Source: Parvibaculum sedimenti
GTDB taxonomy: Bacteria > Pseudomonadota > Alphaproteobacteria > Parvibaculales > Parvibaculaceae
DNA length: 64,000 nucleotides
Assembly (NCBI RefSeq): GCF_009184905.1
Contig: NZ_WESC01000006.1
Span: 124,001-188,000, forward strand
Reading direction: 5' to 3'
Position numbers and translations under genes: made by a program. Below are positions 15,344 through 42,301 of this stretch, one piece after another (within the stretch, counting starts at the first letter, position 1; the number at the start of each line of letters is the position of its first letter). Below the pieces are notes generated by a model, which was not told where the DNA came from, did not search any database, and saw only the letters and a program-made list of their open reading frames with translations.

Positions 15344-16258
15344 ATGGGGTGGAAGCGTATCGCGCTGGGCGTTCTGGGCGCATTTATCCTGATCGGCGGC
15401 GGAGGCTATTACTGGTTCGTGGTCGAAAGCCATGCGCCCGCAGACGGATATTTCGCGCTCGACATGGAGGAAATCCGCCGCCTCGCCGATGCGCAGCCCG
15501 GAGACAAGGCCGTGGAAATCGACGCGGAGAAGGTCGCAGCCTTTTCCTTTCCGATGACGGCTGTCGTCGCCGGCGACGGCTGGAGGAAGGTCGAGATGCC
15601 GGTCTTTTCCTACCGGGTCGTCTTTCCCGGCGGCGCGACCGCGATCATCGACACGGCGCTTGACGACAAGCTTGGCGGGTCGAACCTCGCTTCCTTCGAC
15701 AAGGCCGCCTATGACCGCATGAGCGCGGCGCTCGACAAGGCTTCGCTGATCGTCATAACGCACGAACATATGGATCATATCGGCGGGCTCACCGAACATC
15801 CGGATGTGAAGCACATCCTGCCCTCGACGAAGTTGACGCAGGAGCAGGTCGATCATCCGGAACGCTCCGTACCCGCTGCTTTTCCCGCCGGGACGCTCGA
15901 CGGGTACAAGCCGCATGTCTACGACCATTATGTGGCGATCGCGCCGGGCGTCGTGCTCATCAAGTCGCCGGGCCATTCGCCGGGCAGCCAGATGGTCTAT
16001 GTGCAGAAGGCGGACGGCACGGAAGTGCTGTTCATCGGCGATGTCGCTTGGCAGTTCCGCAATATTGACCTGGTGCGTGAGCGCGCGCGACTGGTAACGC
16101 AGTTCATGCTGAAGGAAGACCGGGAGGCCGTTTTCGCGGAGCTCACCGCGCTCAAGCGGCTGCATGAGGCCGAGCCGAAACTCAACATCGTGCCGGGGCA
16201 TGACGGCGTTGCCGTTGCGGCGCTGGAGAAGGCGGGTGTGATCAAGGCGGGGTTCTGA
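15344..16258 (+). CDS. membrane-anchored metallo-beta-lactamase-fold hydrolase
   Basis: A 304-residue protein with one N-terminal membrane segment (about residues 5-25, LGVLGAFILIGGGGYYWFVV) and a metallo-beta-lactamase domain. The HxHxDH-type zinc motif is THEHMDHIGGL (about residues 139-149). Further ligands are in SPGHSPGSQMVY and VPGHDG. A very strong ribosome site (GAGGAGGGGGAGG) precedes the ATG. The fold covers lactonases, RNases and glyoxalases; the substrate is not evident. It stands alone between holC and the GIY-YIG cassette. Confidence 0.85.
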   Translation: MGWKRIALGVLGAFILIGGGGYYWFVVESHAPADGYFALDMEEIRRLADAQPGDKAVEIDAEKVAAFSFPMTAVVAGDGWRKVEMPVFSYRVVFPGGATAIIDTALDDKLGGSNLASFDKAAYDRMSAALDKASLIVITHEHMDHIGGLTEHPDVKHILPSTKLTQEQVDHPERSVPAAFPAGTLDGYKPHVYDHYVAIAPGVVLIKSPGHSPGSQMVYVQKADGTEVLFIGDVAWQFRNIDLVRERARLVTQFMLKEDREAVFAELTALKRLHEAEPKLNIVPGHDGVAVAALEKAGVIKAGF

Positions 16259-16266
16259 GGGGTTTG

Positions 16267-16363
16267 AAGGTGGACCCCGGCTCGAGGCCGGGGTGACGGG
16301 TGTTGTTGAGGGGGCTCAGAATGCCCGCAAGCGTCATGCCGGACTCGATCCGGCATCCATCTT
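16267..16363. repeat. composite palindromic element, left copy
   Basis: About 97 bases containing two facing imperfect palindromes. One is at 16274-16294 (ACCCCGGC / GCCGGGGT, loop TCGAG) and one at 16336-16356 (ATGCCGGA / TCCGGCAT, loop CTCGA). They are joined by a linker containing TGACG, TGTTGTT and AATGCCCG. The same order of parts recurs at 16680-16772 in direct orientation on the other side of the GIY-YIG gene. This palindrome type is common between genes in Alphaproteobacteria. Confidence 0.8.
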
Positions 16364-16378
16364 TTTCAGGGGGCATCG

Positions 16379-16669
16379 ATGAAAGGCGGGTGGGTTTACA
16401 TCATGACCAACAAGCCACGCGGGACGATCTATGTCGGGGTGACAGCGGATATCGGGCGGCGGGCACATGAGCACCGCGAGGGCCTGATCGACGGATTCAC
16501 GAAACGCTACGGCTTGAAGCATCTCGTGTTCATGGAAAGGCATGAAGAAATCGAGGCGGCAATTGATCGCGAAAAGAAGATCAAGAACTGGCCGCGCGAA
16601 TGGAAGGTTGAGTTGATCTTGTCCGTCAATCCGGGATGGGATGATTTGTACGAGACGCTTCAGTCCTGA
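16379..16669 (+). CDS. GIY-YIG nuclease family protein (YhbQ/UvrC-N-like)
   Basis: A 96-residue single-domain protein with the GIY-YIG core (WVYIMTNKPRGTIYVGVTADIGRR; outer residues 5-28), here as VYI and YVG. The HEHR helix and the glutamate of IEAAIDREKKIKNWPREWK follow. Similar small nucleases may nick DNA or bind branched structures. AGGGGGC sits 4 bases before the ATG, directly after the left palindrome. The gene is bracketed by two direct copies of a palindromic element, which suggests the nuclease acts on, or moves with, those sequences (inference). Confidence 0.88.
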   Translation: MKGGWVYIMTNKPRGTIYVGVTADIGRRAHEHREGLIDGFTKRYGLKHLVFMERHEEIEAAIDREKKIKNWPREWKVELILSVNPGWDDLYETLQS

Positions 16670-16679
16670 CGGACGCCGC

Positions 16680-16772
16680 AAGATGGATGCCGGATCAAGT
16701 CCGGCATGACGTTTGTTGTTTTGTCGAAGTAAAAAATGCCCGTCATCCCGGACTTGATCCGGGATCCATCTT
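16680..16772. repeat. composite palindromic element, right copy
   Basis: About 93 bases with palindromes at 16687-16707 (ATGCCGGA / TCCGGCAT, loop TCAAG) and 16745-16765 (ATCCCGGA / TCCGGGAT, loop CTTGA). The linker again has TGACG, TGTTGTT and AATGCCCG. The 32 bases at 16680-16711 are an inverted copy of 16332-16363 with a single difference. The element lies within 5 bases of the ABC-F gene stop and could also serve as its transcription end. Confidence 0.8.
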
Positions 16773-16776
16773 CTCT

Positions 16777-18672
16777 CTAGTCGGCCATCGCCTCGTCGTA
16801 AGCCGCAGAGGCATGGAGCCAGTCTTCCTCGGCCTTGGCGAGCGCCTTGAGCGTGTCGGCGCGGAGCTTGGCGATGCGGGCGGCTTCTTCGGGCTTCGCG
16901 GCGAGGTCGGCGTCGTGCTTCGCCACTTCGGCCTGAAGGCGTTCGACTTCCTTTTCGGCGGCCTGCGCCTTTTTCTTCAGCGGCGCGAATTGCTCGCGCT
17001 TTTGCGCGGCGATGCGGCGGGCTTCTTTCTTGTCGATCTGGGGGCGCGGGGCGGGGCGGGCTTCCGCTTCCGCCTGTTCCTCTGCCGTCAGCGGCTTGAT
17101 GCGCCGCGCAGGATCGAGCAGCCATTTACGGTAATCGTCGAGATCGCCGTCATAGGGCTTCACCGTGCCGTCAGCGACGAGCCAGAGCCGGTCGGCGCAA
17201 GTCTCGACCAGATGGCGGTCATGGCTGATGAGGATGAAGGCGCCGTCATAGTCGTTGATCGCCATGACCAGCGCTTCGCGGCTATCGACGTCCAGATGGT
17301 TCGTCGGTTCATCGAGGATGATGAGGTGCGGCTTGTTGTAGGTCTGCACTGCGAAGAGCAGACGTGCCTTTTCGCCGCCTGAAAGCTTCTCGACTTTCGT
17401 GTCCGCCTTGTCAGCGCCGAAGCCATAGGAGCCAGCGGTCGCGCGGACCTGCGCCTGCGTCGCCGTCGGCATCAGCTCGCGGAAATGCTCATAGGGCGTT
17501 TCGCCCATGTTGAGTTCGTCGAGCTGGTGCTGCGCGAAGTAAGCGATGCGGAGTTTTTTCGAGTCGTATTTATGGCCGCCCGTGACCTGCAGACGGTCGC
17601 AGAGGAGCTTGGCGAAGGTCGACTTGCCGTTGCCGTTCGCGCCGAGAAGCGCGATGCGGTCGTCATGGTCGATGCGAAGGTCGAGATCCTTCAGTACGGG
17701 CTTGTCGGCGGCATAGCCCACGCTCGCATGTTCGAGGCGGATGATGGGCGAGGCGAGCGGCTTCTCCGGCGCGGGGAAACGGAACGGCATCACGCGCTCG
17801 CTCAGAATGTCGGCGATGGGCTCCATCTTGGCCAGCGCCTTCATGCGGCTCTGCGCCTGACGGGCCTTCGAGGCCTTCGCCTTGAAGCGCTCGACGAATT
17901 CCTCCATGTGGCGGCGCGCGTCTTCCTGCTTCTTCTTCATCGACATCTGCAGCATCAGCTTTTCGCGACGCGTGCGGTCGAAGCGGTCGTAATTGCCGGC
18001 GTAGTAGGTGAGCTTCTTGTGCTCGAGATGCAGGATGCCCTGGGCGACATTGTTCAGCAGGTCGCGGTCATGGCTGACGATGAGGACCGTATAGGGATAG
18101 GAGCGCAGATAGTCCTCGAGCCAGATCGTGCCTTCGAGGTCGAGATAGTTGGTCGGTTCGTCGAGCAGCAGGAGGTCGGGCTCGGAAAAGAGCACGGCCG
18201 CCAGCGCGACGCGCATGCGCCAGCCGCCCGAGAAATCGGAGCAGGGGCGGGCCTGCGCCGCCTCGTCGAAGCCGAGGCCGGCGAGGATCGCGGCGGCGCG
18301 GGAGGGTGCGGCATGAGCGCCCATGTCGGCCAGACGCGTATGAATTTCGGCGATACGGTGCGGGTCGGAGGCGTGTTCGGCCTCGTCCAGCAGGGCGGCG
18401 CGCTCGGTATCGGCGGCGAGCACCGTATCGAGCAGCGTGGTCGGCCCGGCCAGAACCTCCTGGCGGACCATGCCGACGCGCCAGTTCTTCGGGTAGCTGA
18501 TGCCGCCCGTTTCGGTCTGGTATTCGCCGGTAATGATCTTGAGCAGGGTGGATTTGCCGGTGCCATTGCGGCCGACAAAGCCCACCCGCTGCCCCGGGGG
18601 CACAGCCGCGGTGACATGATCGAGAAGGAGGCGCCCCTCCATGCGGAAAGTCAGGTCGTTTATGTGAAGCAT
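16777..18672 (-). CDS. ABC-F family ATP-binding protein (Uup/YheS-like)
   Basis: A soluble tandem-ATPase of the ABC-F family, whose members act on the ribosome or DNA. The 631-residue protein has Walker A FVGRNGTGKST (about residues 31-41), signature FSGGWRMRVALA, Walker B LLLLDEPTNYLD, an arginine-rich linker, a second ATPase half (LLGANGNGKST; LSGGEKARLLFA; LDEPTNHLD) and a C-terminal coiled coil (QIDKKEARRIAAQKREQF onward). The start MLHINDL at 18672 matches the family; an upstream ATG at 18708 is less likely. Which ABC-F subgroup it belongs to is uncertain. Confidence 0.92.
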   Translation of the reverse strand: MLHINDLTFRMEGRLLLDHVTAAVPPGQRVGFVGRNGTGKSTLLKIITGEYQTETGGISYPKNWRVGMVRQEVLAGPTTLLDTVLAADTERAALLDEAEHASDPHRIAEIHTRLADMGAHAAPSRAAAILAGLGFDEAAQARPCSDFSGGWRMRVALAAVLFSEPDLLLLDEPTNYLDLEGTIWLEDYLRSYPYTVLIVSHDRDLLNNVAQGILHLEHKKLTYYAGNYDRFDRTRREKLMLQMSMKKKQEDARRHMEEFVERFKAKASKARQAQSRMKALAKMEPIADILSERVMPFRFPAPEKPLASPIIRLEHASVGYAADKPVLKDLDLRIDHDDRIALLGANGNGKSTFAKLLCDRLQVTGGHKYDSKKLRIAYFAQHQLDELNMGETPYEHFRELMPTATQAQVRATAGSYGFGADKADTKVEKLSGGEKARLLFAVQTYNKPHLIILDEPTNHLDVDSREALVMAINDYDGAFILISHDRHLVETCADRLWLVADGTVKPYDGDLDDYRKWLLDPARRIKPLTAEEQAEAEARPAPRPQIDKKEARRIAAQKREQFAPLKKKAQAAEKEVERLQAEVAKHDADLAAKPEEAARIAKLRADTLKALAKAEEDWLHASAAYDEAMAD

Positions 18673-18765
18673 GGGCGGCTCTTTAGCACGGAAGGTTGCC
18701 GTAGTCATTAAGCCCGGCTATAACCCGCGCCAAATCCCTGACCCTTATTTTTAGGAACTCTGAGC

Positions 18766-37722: not shown

Positions 37723-38136
37723 TCAGGCCGCGCCGAGCGCGCGCTTCATGGCTTTGAGATTGCTCCGGCAGAAGGCAGTCATCTGCGCGGTCTGCTCGTC
37801 GAGCGAGGCTTCGTCTTCGAGCTCGAACCGGATGATGAGTTCGATGCGGGAGGAGCTGTCTGAAACCGGCCTCACCGAGACGGTGGAAAGATAGGTCTTC
37901 ATCCCCGCGCGCGGCAGCGTGTAGGTGTAGTGGTGCGGGCCCTCGTCAACCAGCCGCTCGCGGAAGCTCTGGCCGTTCTGAAGCGTCAGTACACGGAACT
38001 TGCCCTCCGGCGTCTCTTCAAGCTTTGCGTCAGTGACGAGCTTCGCCCATTTGTCGATACGGACGAAATCGCCGATCACGGCCCATACGGCATCGGCGGG
38101 GAGCGAGATGTCTTCGTAGGTGACGAGTTCGTGCAT
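37723..38136 (-). CDS. SRPBCC (polyketide cyclase/START-like) family protein
   Basis: A 137-residue protein with the START-like helix-grip fold: an N-terminal strand followed by LPADAVWAVIGDFVRIDKW, then FRVLTLQNGQSFRERLV, YTYTLPRAG, and a C-terminal helix (FCRSNLKAMKRALG). Such proteins bind hydrophobic ligands; no specific role can be read. The ATG at 38136 (MHELVTYEDISLP) is the natural family start. It shares a strand with nrdJ downstream of it in map order but is separated from it by a palindromic repeat. Confidence 0.85.
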   Translation of the reverse strand: MHELVTYEDISLPADAVWAVIGDFVRIDKWAKLVTDAKLEETPEGKFRVLTLQNGQSFRERLVDEGPHHYTYTLPRAGMKTYLSTVSVRPVSDSSSRIELIIRFELEDEASLDEQTAQMTAFCRSNLKAMKRALGAA

Positions 38137-38174
38137 GGCGGCTCTCCCGCGCTTGATATTCACTAAAAACGTGG

Positions 38175-38197
38175 ATGGCCCGGTCAAGCCGGGCCAT
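38175..38197. repeat. palindromic repeat at nrdJ 3' end
   Basis: A perfect 9-5-9 inverted repeat, ATGGCCCGG / CCGGGCCAT with loop TCAAG, followed by GACG. It shares the outer GATGG and GACG bases and the central TCAAG loop with the palindromes flanking the GIY-YIG gene, so it is another member of the same family. It lies 20 bases after the nrdJ stop and may serve as its transcription end. Confidence 0.7.
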
Positions 38198-38216
38198 GAC
38201 GTCGGAGAATGATGGC

Positions 38217-41200
38217 TTAGCTACAGCCGCTCGTCGAGCCGCAGGTGTCGCATTTCAGGCATGTTCCGTTTCTCACCATCGTGAAGTTGCCACATTCGCT
38301 GCAGGCTTCGCCTTCATAGCCTTTCATGCGGGCTTCGGCGACGCGGGAGAAGGAGACGGTGGTGCTTTCGGTGCGGAGCGTCGCCTGCACGGCCATTTCC
38401 TCGGCGTGTTCGGCGGCGTCGAGGATGGCGGCCGTGGCCGTCGCGCCCGCGACCTGGGCTCGCATCGTCGCGGCACCGCCGCGGACGATATAGAGGTTCG
38501 ACATTTGTGTGTTGCGCGTGAAGCCGGGGCTCACGACGCTCGATGCCGGAAGCTTGCCTTCGTCGGAGCCGCTGCCCATGGCATCGAAGCCGATGTCTTT
38601 GGGGTCTACATGGCCGAGGTCGGAGCGGCCGAGATAGGAGACGGCGAGTTCGCGGAACACATAGTCGAGAATCGAGGTCGCGTTCTTGATGCGATCATTG
38701 CCCTGTACGAGGCCGGCGGGCTCAAAGCGAGTGAAGGTGAAGGCATCCACATATTCCTCGAGCGGCACGCCATATTGCAGGCCGAGCGAGATGGCGATGG
38801 CGAAGTTGTTCATCAGCGAGCGGAAGGCAGCGCCTTCCTTGTGCATGTCGATGAAGATTTCGCCGATCTTGCCGTCTTCATATTCGCCGGTGCGAAGATA
38901 GACCTTGTGGCCGCCGACAAGGGCCTTTTGCGTGTAGCCCTTGCGCCGGTCGGGAAGCTTGGCGCGCTCCTTGGCGCGTTCCACCACGCGCTCGACGATC
39001 TTCTCGGCGACGACGCGGGCGCGTTCCTGCTGCGGGGCCTGCGCGAGGCGCTCGGCAATGGGCTCTTCGTCGTCCAGAAGTTCGTCTTCGAAAATCTGGG
39101 AGTTCAGCGGCTGGGAGAGCTTCGAGCCATCGCGGTAGAGCGCATTGGCCTTCAGCGCGAGTTTCCAGGAGAGCATGTAGCTCGCCTTGCAATCCTCGAC
39201 ACTTGCCGCATTCGGCATGTTGATCGTCTTGGAGATCGCGCCAGAGATGAAGGGCTGGGCGGCGGCCATCATCAGGATGTGGCTGTCGACCGAGAGGAAG
39301 CGCGTGCCGGTGCGGCCGCAGGGATTGGCGCAATCGAAGACGGGCAGGTGCTCGTCCTTCAGATGCGGCGCGCCTTCGAGCGTCATGGTGCCGCAGACGT
39401 GAAGGTTCGCGGCGTCGATCTCGGCCTTGGTGAAGCCGATGGCGGCGAGGAGATCGAAGTCGAGATCGTCCATCGCGTCTGAATCGAGGCCGAGGACGCC
39501 GGTGCAGAAGTCTTCGCCGAGCGACCACTTGTTGAAGGCGAAGCGGATGTCGAAGGCGGTACCGAGGGCGGCTTCGATCGCCGCGATCTTGCCGTCGGTG
39601 AAGCCCCTGGCGGCGAGCGTCGTATGATTGACGCCGGGCGCGCGTTCCAGCGTACCGAGGCCGACGGCGTAGTTCACCATCTCGTCGATCTGGGCTTCGG
39701 TATAGCCGAGTGTGCGAAGGGCCTGCGGCACGGCGCGGTTGATGATCTTGAAATAGCCGCCGCCTGCGAGCTTCTTGAACTTCACCAGCGCGAAGTCGGG
39801 CTCGATGCCGGTCGTGTCGCAATCCATGACGAGGCCGATCGTGCCCGTGGGCGCGATGACGGTCGCCTGCGCGTTGCGATAGCCGAAACGCTCGCCCATG
39901 GTGACGGCAAGATCCCAGGCGGCACGGGCATGGTCGATCAGGTCGCGCTGCGGGCAGTTCTCGTGGTCGAGAGGCACGGGCGCGATGCTGAGGGCTTCAT
40001 AGCCGTCCACGGCGCCATGCGCGGCCCGGGCGTGGTTGCGCATGACGCGCAGCATATGCTCGCGGTTTTCCGGGTAGCCGAGGAAGGCGCCGAGCTCGCG
40101 GGCCATCTGCGCCGAGGTCGCATAGGCGACGCCGGTCATGATGGCGCTGATCGCGCCGGTGAGCGCGCGGGCTTCCTTCGAATCGTAGCCGAGGCCGAGC
40201 GACATCAGGAGGCCGCCGATATTGGCGAAGCCGAGGCCGAGCGTGCGGAACCTGAAGGAGCGTTCGGCAATCTCGCGGCTCGGGAACTGGGCCATGAGCA
40301 CCGAGATTTCGAGCACGATGGTCCAGAGCTTGACCGCATGTTCGAAGGCTTCGACGTCGAAGCGGCCACCCTGTTCGCGGAAGGTCATCAGGTTCAGCGA
40401 GGCGAGGTTGCAGGCCGTGTCGTCGAGGAACATATATTCCGAGCACGGATTGCTGGCGCGGATATCGCCATTGGCGGGGCAGGTGTGCCAGTCGTTGATC
40501 GTGGTGTGGAACTGGATGCCCGGATCGGCGGACGCCCATGCGGCATGGGCAATCTGTTCCCAGAGTTCGCGCGCCTTCAGCGTTTTCGAGATGCGGCCAT
40601 CGGTGCGGCGGACGAGGTTCCAGTCGCCATCGTTTTCGACGGCGCGGAGGAAACCATCCTCGACGCGGACGGTGTTGTTGGAGTTCTGGCCGGAGACGGT
40701 CAGATAGGCTTCCGAATCCCAGTCGGTGTCATAGGTGCGGAAGTCGATATCCGTGTAGCCCTGACGCGCGAACTGGATGACGCGCTGAATGTAGTTCTCC
40801 GGCACCTGCATGCGGCGCGCGGCGACGATCTCGCGCTTCAGGGCAGGGTTCTTCTTCGGGTCGTAGCAGTCGTCATTGTGCCCTTCGCAATTCACGCAGG
40901 CGCGCATGATCGCGTTGAGATGCTTCTGGTTGATCTTCGAGCCGGTGACGAGGGCGGCGACCTTCTGCTCTTCGATGACCTTCCAGTTGATGAAATTCTC
41001 GATGTCGGGATGGTCCACATCGACGATGACCATCTTGGCGGCGCGGCGTGTGGTGCCGCCCGACTTGATCGCGCCCGCCGCGCGGTCGCCGATCTTGAGG
41101 AAGCTCATCAGGCCCGACGACTTGCCGCCGCCCGAAAGCTTCTCTTCTTCGCCGCGCAGGCTGGAGAAGTTCGAGCCCGTGCCCGAGCCATATTTGAAGA

Positions 41201-41870
41201 GGCGCGCCTCGCGGACCCAGAGGTCCATGATGCCGTTCTCGTTGACGAGATCGTCATTCACGCTCTGGATGAAGCAGGCATGCGGCTGCGGGCGCTCATA
41301 GGCGCTGGTCGCGCCGACCGTCTCTCCCGTGCGGTGGTTGACGTAGTAGTGGCCCTGCGCGGGGCCGTCGATGCCATAGGCCCAGTGGAGGCCGGTGTTG
41401 AACCATTGCGGAGAGTTGGGCGCCGAGATCTGGGCGGCGAGCATATAGGCAAGCTCGTCGCGGAAGGCGGCGGCGTCTTCTTCCGTTTCGAAATAGCCGC
41501 CCTTCCAGCCCCAATAGGTCCAGGTGCCGGCAAGGCGGTCGAAGACCTGGCGCGCGTCGCGCTCCGGGCCGAAGCGATCGTCGGGACGTAGCACTTCCAG
41601 CGCCTCGATGTCCGGCTCATGGCGCCAGAGGAATTCGGGCACGCCCTCTTCGGGCACGGGGCGAAGCACGGCGGCGACGCCGGCTTTGCGGAAATATTTC
41701 TGCGCGAGGATATCGCAGGCGACCTGGCTCCAGTCGGCGGGGACGTCGATCTCGTCGAGCTGGAAAACCAGCGAGCCGTCGGGATTTCGGATTTCGCTCG
41801 TGGCCGAGCGGAAGGAAATCCCTGCATAGGGCGATTGGCCCTCGACGGTGAAGCAACGCTGGATACGCAT
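38217..41870 (-). CDS. nrdJ: vitamin B12-dependent (class II) ribonucleoside-diphosphate reductase
   Basis: Makes deoxyribonucleotides with adenosylcobalamin, working with or without oxygen. The 1217-residue protein fits the long class II type. Visible blocks are [28 protein letters not shown], the active-site region [39 protein letters not shown], and a C-terminal cysteine cluster ([15 protein letters not shown]) that resembles a thiol-exchange or zinc tail. The start at MRIQRCF (41870) follows GGGGGT and matches the family; an ATG at 41888 is possible. No cobalamin riboswitch was seen upstream. Confidence 0.96.
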
Positions 41871-42301
41871 CTGACCCCCGGCTCTCATATGCGCGCCCCG
41901 TGGCCAGGGCGCGGCTTAAGCTCATGTTCAGGTCGGGGACCAGCGGACCGGCATTCATCGGGCAAGGCTCCTCCGCCGCGTTCGACCGCATTTTGAACAG
42001 GGCCCCTAAACCCCTGAATTCAAAAAACTTTCGACCGCCCGGTCATTATGCTTGCTGGTGAACTTGCCTTGGCCTCGCTTGCCGCCCCTCAACCGATGGA
42101 AATCCTAGTCCAGCCAACCCCGGCGTCAAGGCATAGTAGCGAAAGCCATATAGAACGCGACATATAGCGCAGGCGCGGGGAGGGGGCGGAGGCGCGCGCG
42201 CATCGAATCGGGCTCGGGAAGCCCGAGGCCGCATCTTGAGGATTCCCGCGTTGTCATCGTGTGAGCCAGCCTTCTGGACAAGCGGCTTCGAGGGGCTAAC
42301 C
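41871..42301. other. 431-base divergent intergenic region, nrdJ / Tad-like gene
   Basis: No gene is seen. It must hold the promoters of both flanking genes. It contains a direct repeat CATATAG at 42147-42153 and 42161-42167 (14-base period), and a 6-base-pair hairpin CTCGGG / CCCGAG at 42213-42227. On the minus strand the first repeat region reads CGCTATATGTCG, loosely like an NrdR box, but the spacing of the pair is wrong for a standard NrdR site. Confidence 0.4.

Follow-up and report, generated by a model that had tools for sequence, protein, structure and literature searches.

A small GIY-YIG nuclease gene and its cognate CGTC-type palindromes in Parvibaculum sedimenti and other bacteria

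A 64,000-nt stretch of the Parvibaculum sedimenti genome (contig NZ_WESC01000006.1, positions 124,001–188,000 of the forward strand; below, the window, in whose coordinates positions are given) carries a gene for a small GIY-YIG nuclease (16379–16669, + strand) that lies between inverted copies of a short palindrome. In their form the palindromes correspond to CGTC-tagged repetitive extragenic palindromes (REPs), and the association of this kind of gene with palindromes cognate to it is firmly established. The best reading, made by analogy, is that this would be a partnership like that of REPs with the REP-associated tyrosine transposases (RAYTs), run by an unrelated nuclease. The protein is probably a dedicated nuclease partner of the CGTC-tagged REP family, which would cut its cognate palindrome while host repair copies or excises the unit. 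GIY-YIG nucleases are likely to be the missing engine of the CGTC repeats, which had been left without a mover.

The 96-amino-acid product of the gene matches PF01541 (E 5.8e-13), and two palindromes stand on either side of its coding sequence. All four show the form CGTC...CCA, with an 8-bp stem and a 5-nt loop; the stem starts with AT in three of them and with AC in one. In the left doublet, palindrome R (16271–16298, reading CGTCACCCCGGCCTCGAGCCGGGGTCCA on the − strand) is followed by palindrome L (16332–16359, + strand, stem ATGCCGGA, CCA tail), and the same order is seen on the right, with R at 16684–16711 (− strand) and L at 16741–16768 (+ strand). The ordered parts that a preliminary description of the locus had listed for both flanks (R, TGACG, TGTTGTT, AATGCCCG, L) are all present, the three short ones at 16294, 16301 and 16320 on the left and at 16707, 16714 and 16735 on the right. 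The accompanying claim, of two direct copies of a two-palindrome element, holds for the order of the parts but less well for the letters, since the likeness between the doublets is modest (76% over 41 nt, 91% over 32 nt). The inner palindromes, upstream L and its cognate inverted partner downstream R, do form the 32-nt inverted repeat with one mismatch that had been described, set in 36-nt arms around the gene (16328–16363 and 16680–16715) that are 94% complementary. Equally in line with that description, a likely ribosome-binding site, AGGGGG (16368–16373, + strand), judged from sequence only, comes soon after the inner upstream palindrome and shortly before the ATG at 16379. The inner inverted pair with its gene is the more general unit, and the outer palindromes differ between loci.

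When the 250 nt before the gene are aligned locally with the reverse-complemented 250 nt that follow it, the score is 36.0; the highest control scores are 14.5, over 1232 control positions of the window, and 14, over 2000 shufflings of the flanks. The inverted flanks at this locus are therefore not a product of chance. A known RNA element was considered and rejected, as the window has no Rfam match at gathering thresholds. When folded as single-stranded DNA, the right doublet (16680–16772) becomes a single long hairpin with −33.4 kcal/mol and z −9.5; long DNA hairpins are given by two dimers in all (z −8.3 and −9.5).

The arrangement is widespread. The 80 named loci compared here are the best among at least 508 relatives from a degenerate scan of named genomes. 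With an alignment score of at least 16 as threshold, inverted flanks are present at 52 of them, as against 5 of 1767 control positions of the same spacing and 11 of 401 other open reading frames (ORFs) in the same loci (Fisher p 4e-38). These 80 loci span Alpha-, Beta-, Gamma- and Deltaproteobacteria, Nitrospirae, Omnitrophus, Sulfurimonas, Ignavibacteria, Bacteroidota, Clostridiales and candidate-phylum records. Inverted flanks occur at 51 of 59 genes in Parvibaculum and its class relatives, and at 80 of 106 genes in a phylum-wide set, which is the better-scoring part among the matches listed (one further gene of the 107 has too little flank); nine partial or split matches in relatives are excluded from the flank, paralogue-matching and loop-class counts. 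A weaker GIY-YIG type, taken mostly from the same genomes as the relatives' genes, forms a separate group in the tree (Shimodaira–Hasegawa-like approximate likelihood ratio test, SH-aLRT, 90) and has such flanks in 1 of 13 cases, the lone case being a further lineage. Hairpins lie within 150 nt of the gene upstream at 71 and downstream at 74 of the 80 named loci (random positions, 244 of 639). At loci from many phyla the hairpin nearest to the gene has the consensus GTC-AT...AT-CCA, which random hairpins lack, and its orientation relative to the gene is mostly the same on both sides. In many relatives, the inner upstream palindrome lies ∼20–35 nt before the matched start. Where neighbouring REPs in the named loci are no more than 100 nt apart, 27 pairs are tail-to-tail, 18 head-to-head and 3 head-to-tail.

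It could be argued that REPs are so frequent that many genes simply end up flanked by them. Some genomes do hold hundreds of REPs, and REPs tend toward gene ends, according to a 2013 survey (Di Nocera, De Gregorio, Rocco; PMC3733652). However, the control positions, the other ORFs and the window shuffles make this explanation very unlikely, and it was rejected, its probability being in our estimate close to negligible. The weaker-type genes also speak against it, the inner pairs match each other and not the flanks of paralogues, and genes are flanked even in some genomes (G080, G151, G187 and G242 among them) with zero copies of both REP patterns searched for. A random placement of the elements with respect to GIY-YIG genes, named at the outset among the observations that would refute the proposal, is not what was found: most of the genes are flanked, and few other ORFs are.

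The source genome (3.70 Mb, 41 contigs) contains the window-type palindrome at 17 sites (up to 3 mismatches), with none for the reversed control. It has four small GIY-YIG genes, that of the window (on contig C38), one on C5 (74% identity), one on C40 (49%) and one on C2 that is split over two frames; two more GIY-YIG matches are marginal (E 0.08 and 0.6). Three of the four genes lie within clean inverted palindrome pairs, each pair with its own stem: ATGCCGGA with a 5-nt loop at C38, ATGGCCCGG (9 bp) with a 5-nt loop at C5, and ATCCCGGC (8 bp) with a 4-nt loop at C40. At C2 (G000:C2:27302–27587; L012, L013, L230), where the copy is frameshifted, the upstream palindromes are good and the downstream one is degenerate by eye, as expected for a decaying unit. 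The longest ORF of the C40 paralogue (L011:1492–1827, − strand) begins within the flanking palindrome (MCHPGESRDPL...); ORF starts of this kind would yield spurious REP-encoded N-termini in annotations. Most of the gene-less sites among the 17 are dimers. As we read the sites, eight dimers are tail-to-tail (CGTC-palindrome-CCATCTT, ∼20 nt, AAGATGG-palindrome-GACG), although in a few of these the partner or the tail is altered; another four are head-to-head, counting the two in the window. The gene-less tail-to-tail dimers end like the gene-bearing unit, an arrangement of inverted ends as in miniature inverted-repeat transposable elements or REPINs.

Most genes are matched to palindromes of their own. 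In genomes with two or more such genes, the downstream flank of a gene pairs better with its own upstream flank than that of any paralogue does in 44 of 57 cases (median pairing score 27 for own flanks, 10 for cross pairs), and none of 20000 within-genome permutations attains the observed sum. The loop class agrees upstream and downstream of 73 of 95 genes, with a maximum of 55 in 10000 shuffles. Mapped onto the protein tree, which is built from 94 columns and leaves many forks unresolved, loop class requires 9 changes, as against a mean of 20.2 and a minimum of 16 in 300 shuffles.

Presence of the gene also goes together with REP abundance. Among 397 genomes drawn across the phylum, the gene (a match at E 1e-15; gene-negative genomes have none at this level) is present in 114. 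Genomes with at least five copies of the REP pattern GTCAYNCCNGCGNANGCNGGNRTCCA (up to 2 mismatches) make up 64 of the 114 with the gene and 25 of the 283 without it (odds ratio 13, p 1e-22), and the odds ratio is 11.9 when stratified by family (p 3.6e-8, 14 informative families). For the loop-class comparison 60 genomes were kept, with mixed flank labels left out; at least five matching REPs were found in 24 of 25 genomes with the matching flank loop class vs 12 of 27 with other flank types, counts to which the gene's own flanks add a few copies. The CTTGN loop label was discarded, having picked up unrelated sequence (1 of 8 genomes with five or more copies of the REP pattern), and only the CGNANG row is relied on. 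Another transposase, of RAYT/IS200 or other insertion sequence (IS) type, might instead move the palindromes, with the GIY-YIG gene riding between them as a passenger. Y1 transposase genes are common enough for this, the domain of RAYT/IS200 (PF01797) being present in 178 of the 397 genomes, and it is for this domain that a link was tested. Yet PF01797 is unlinked to REP richness (42 of 178 genomes with it, 47 of 219 without; odds ratio 1.13, p 0.63) and a search of the source genome for it at E 1e-5 gave no match, on which grounds a RAYT was rejected as the driver. A passenger gene would also leave the cognate match of palindrome and GIY-YIG lineage unexplained, and the 2013 survey found CGTC REPs unlinked to transposase genes (PMC3733652). 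We consider this explanation highly improbable.

Sites with and without the unit can be compared in several groups, and a search of the genome and its relatives, as first recommended, shows that both forms exist and that there are empty sites. The hydrolase gene preceding the window locus is found in 17 Parvibaculum genomes; the ABC-F gene is still next in 12, and the neighbour differs in 5. Of the 12 syntenic sites, two (in the source genome, G000, and in G004) carry the gene between REP doublets. At a third, in G015, the gene is missing and one REP of a different type is found, and the nine others have neither gene nor REP. Six relatives were searched for a gene-less dimer of the source genome (C37:74935–75022); its two flanks could both be matched in five, none of which has the dimer, the gap there being 30–83 bp instead of 144–183. 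On Sphingobium plasmids, a site between fnrL and a response-regulator gene contains the nuclease gene in seven records, where the match runs through it, and lacks it in four, the alignment being made from three records with and four without; one of the seven, TYG73, matches the protein query in two pieces and is perhaps broken. Two of the gene-less plasmids, TYG64 and TYG74, have a double-headed palindrome CGTC...GACG at the site (L238, L240), and the other two, TYG72 and TYG65, have no such palindrome. As judged from the sequence, the double-headed palindrome resembles the joined outer halves of the flanking palindromes (exactly in TYG64, with changes in TYG74) and is a possible excision scar. 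As a general scar it was dropped, with 2 pattern matches, one of them doubtful, among the 80 named and 13 own-genome loci. In Azospirillum lipoferum 4B (L350) sufB and sufC are separated by the nuclease gene and its palindromes; in eleven other Azospirillum records the match is limited to sequence outside the gene, and the five that were fetched have short gaps without such REPs (by eye). A separate sufB/sufC insertion with a different palindrome is found on a plasmid of Shinella PSBB067 (L359), and these two insertions are apparently independent.

GIY-YIG is a known homing-nuclease fold, e.g. that of I-TevI, and it is conceivable that the gene invades pre-existing CGTC palindromes by cut-and-copy repair, while something else spreads the palindromes. 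The double-headed palindrome in two of the four gene-less Sphingobium plasmids and the single palindrome at the gene-less G015 site would suit this view, and with I-TevI-type homing endonucleases the system shares not only the fold but also the insertion of a nuclease gene at DNA related to its target. It differs from them in the size of the protein (PF01541 only, with no further domain in 96 amino acids), in the two palindromes that are kept and in the palindromes that also occur gene-less elsewhere in the genome. REP abundance, moreover, is strongly gene-dependent, and the cognate stems track the protein tree and differ among paralogues within a genome. No such palindrome is present at nine of ten gene-less syntenic Parvibaculum sites, in TYG65 and TYG72, or at the five Azospirillum sites (by eye), and five relatives lack the gene-less dimer as well. 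A homing variant is thus regarded as unlikely.

In the protein, Y7, Y18, R28, H32, E65 and N84, which we take to be the catalytic positions of the GIY-YIG fold, are invariant in an alignment of 33 sequences. The ratio of nonsynonymous to synonymous substitution rates (dN/dS) is 0.29 or lower in 12 of 15 gene pairs (one of them resting on a single change), and the gene is under purifying selection. No NCBIfam model scores above its cut-off for the window protein. The AlphaFold2 model, a confident one (predicted local distance difference test, pLDDT, 94.7), has as its nearest solved structure the UPF0213 protein BH0048 (PDB 1zg2; sequence E 0.0022, fold E 1e-3, 25% identity), likewise a small stand-alone GIY-YIG domain; the weaker GIY-YIG type is presumed to be nearer to UPF0213 than the palindrome-flanked type is. 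The next folds are SLX1, a branched-DNA nuclease (E ∼0.05), and then the N-domain of UvrC. Because the nearest folds include these two, it is plausible that the modelled nuclease is a structure-selective cutter of hairpins or cruciforms. The same resemblance, together with purifying selection and an inner upstream palindrome placed where it could regulate expression, would also suit a domesticated host enzyme that processes REP cruciforms or hairpins for the cell (e.g. in repair or in mRNA/DNA topology), with the flanking palindromes regulating their own gene. The patchy presence (114 of 397 genomes), the sufB/sufC insertion and the empty sites fit a mobile unit better, as do the several diverged copies per genome, some frameshifted or stop-bearing, and domestication is given a small probability, slightly below that of homing.

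Most bacterial REPs were divided into two superfamilies by the 2013 survey (PMC3733652), from which the following description is also taken. CGTC REPs have an unpaired CGTC or TGTC tag, an 8–9 bp stem starting from AT, a 4–5 nt loop and a CCA tail; they occur mostly in alpha-Proteobacteria yet in 5 phyla, with head-to-head as the main kind of dimer and tail-to-tail and head-to-tail both rare, and apparently lack a dedicated transposase. The window palindromes agree with them in tag, stem, loop, tail and the two kinds of inverted dimer, whereas tail-to-tail dimers, rare in the survey, are commoner than head-to-head ones in the 80 loci here, where the GIY-YIG gene is the consistent cognate occupant. 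Neisseria dRS3 (as CGTC-1) and Rickettsia RPE-4 and RPE-6 were counted as members of the group (PMC3733652), and a member of the nuclease family in Neisseria gonorrhoeae lies among palindromes of dRS3 (CGTC-1) form. The term GIY-YIG was not found in that survey.

RAYTs are tyrosine transposases whose genes lie between inverted REPs and evolve together with them (Nunvar 2010, PMC2817692), and REPINs are dispersed inverted doublets of RAYT REPs (Bertels and Rainey 2011, PMC3116915). To this extent the present system is much like the RAYT/REPtron and REPIN systems: an enzyme gene stands between two inverted REPs, gene and REP co-evolve, REP number is tied to gene presence, gene-less inverted doublets are dispersed, and several distinct gene/REP pairs can share a genome. 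Unlike the RAYT/REPtron, it has a GIY-YIG nuclease (PF01541) instead of a Y1 tyrosine transposase (PF01797) and a CGTC instead of a GTAG tag, and because enzyme class and tag both differ it falls outside that class. Among the matches listed in the open-access literature (no preprints, few subscription journals), no paper linking GIY-YIG genes with REPs was found, and the titles listed for the letters of the palindrome look unrelated. Term look-ups in a 2025 REP survey (PMC12306157) did not find the link, and in what could be seen of another paper (PMC9465073) a RAYT and a GIY-YIG gene share one table, unconnected. The RAYT/REP logic is already known; as far as could be checked, the enzyme class and the REP superfamily that it serves are new to it.

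The original suggestion of a nuclease living in, or spreading with, its cognate palindromes by a RAYT/REP-like logic is thus supported by the flanks, the cognate matching, the co-occurrence and the empty sites. In the dedicated-partner reading, gene and palindromes would together make up a single selfish unit, with the order CGTC-palindrome-CCA tail, gene, reverse-complement tail-palindrome-GACG. Most likely, the protein would recognise its own palindrome where single-stranded or supercoiled DNA folds it into a hairpin or cruciform, and would cut at or near the CGTC tag, after which host repair or replication would copy or excise the unit; gene-less units would persist as tail-to-tail or head-to-head dimers and single palindromes, like REPINs beside RAYTs.

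Several observations weigh against this reading. GIY-YIG enzymes hydrolyse DNA, and to our knowledge they do not join strands; host repair would therefore have to do the rest. A minority of genes fall under the inverted-repeat threshold (28 of 80, 8 of 59 and 26 of 106 in the three sets, or 14–35%), and the nearest tagged hairpin is reversed on 27 of 127 tagged sides in the named loci and on 8 of 92 in the relatives. The left window doublet gives separate hairpins (z −3.7), dN/dS reaches 0.49 in one of the 15 pairs, and two pairs are saturated and so undefined. The 25 of 283 gene-negative genomes with at least five copies of the REP pattern are a further difficulty: a looser search gives nothing better than weak matches (E 1e-14 to 5e-5) for 10 of them and no match for the other 15, and gene loss after amplification would explain them. 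Target-site duplications, sought by eye in the empty-site alignments (Sphingobium, the C37 dimer and Azospirillum), were not identified, the junctions there aligning poorly, and the comparison of empty sites across species tells gain from loss only in part.

Starting from the lone flanked gene of the weaker type, a diverged GIY-YIG subfamily was traced to 28 of 289 Alphaproteobacteria genomes. Inverted flanks are present at 22 of its 28 loci with enough flank (of 30 loci, L360–L389, from 35 matches listed), mostly formed by a different repeat, of the CTCATCCTGAG...TCGAAGGATGAG kind, e.g. at G029:C1:2431435–2431662; this count has no separate control. If the pattern holds, small GIY-YIG nucleases have repeatedly become partners of palindromes. 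A wider proposal may then be made, towards which we lean with modest confidence: GIY-YIG nucleases would be a second pan-bacterial class of palindrome movers, independent of RAYTs, in at least two diverged lineages each with its own palindrome class. They would drive the CGTC REPs, among them dRS3 and the Rickettsia RPE types, and would spread them by hydrolytic cutting and host repair, not by strand transfer.

The CGTC REPs, left without a mobilising enzyme in the 2013 survey (PMC3733652), gain a small and specific candidate with a matched substrate in each genome. With a named enzyme and substrate, the long-standing question of their mover is therefore directly testable. If the proposal is true, unrelated enzymes have taken up the RAYT/REP way of life on at least two occasions, and the finding bears on repeats of pathogens and symbionts (dRS3, RPE). 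A sequence-matched hairpin nuclease of ∼95 amino acids could also interest builders of DNA tools.

In the window, the GIY-YIG ORF is preceded by a metallo-hydrolase gene (15344–16258, + strand) and followed by a convergent gene for an ABC-F type ATPase (16777–18708, − strand). A lone CGTC palindrome with a stem resembling that of the C5 GIY-YIG paralogue is found at 38172–38201 (− strand), between a short ORF (37723–38187) and a large one (38217–41888) that is, by eye, ribonucleotide reductase-like. On Rhizobium plasmids, one palindrome dimer (L243) or two (L232, L244) stand 3′ of the GIY-YIG gene, a difference of ∼250 bp. A member of the family on a Planktothrix agardhii plasmid (L352, 601–885) has a type IIL restriction-modification gene on one side and drmA, from a DISARM defence system, on the other.
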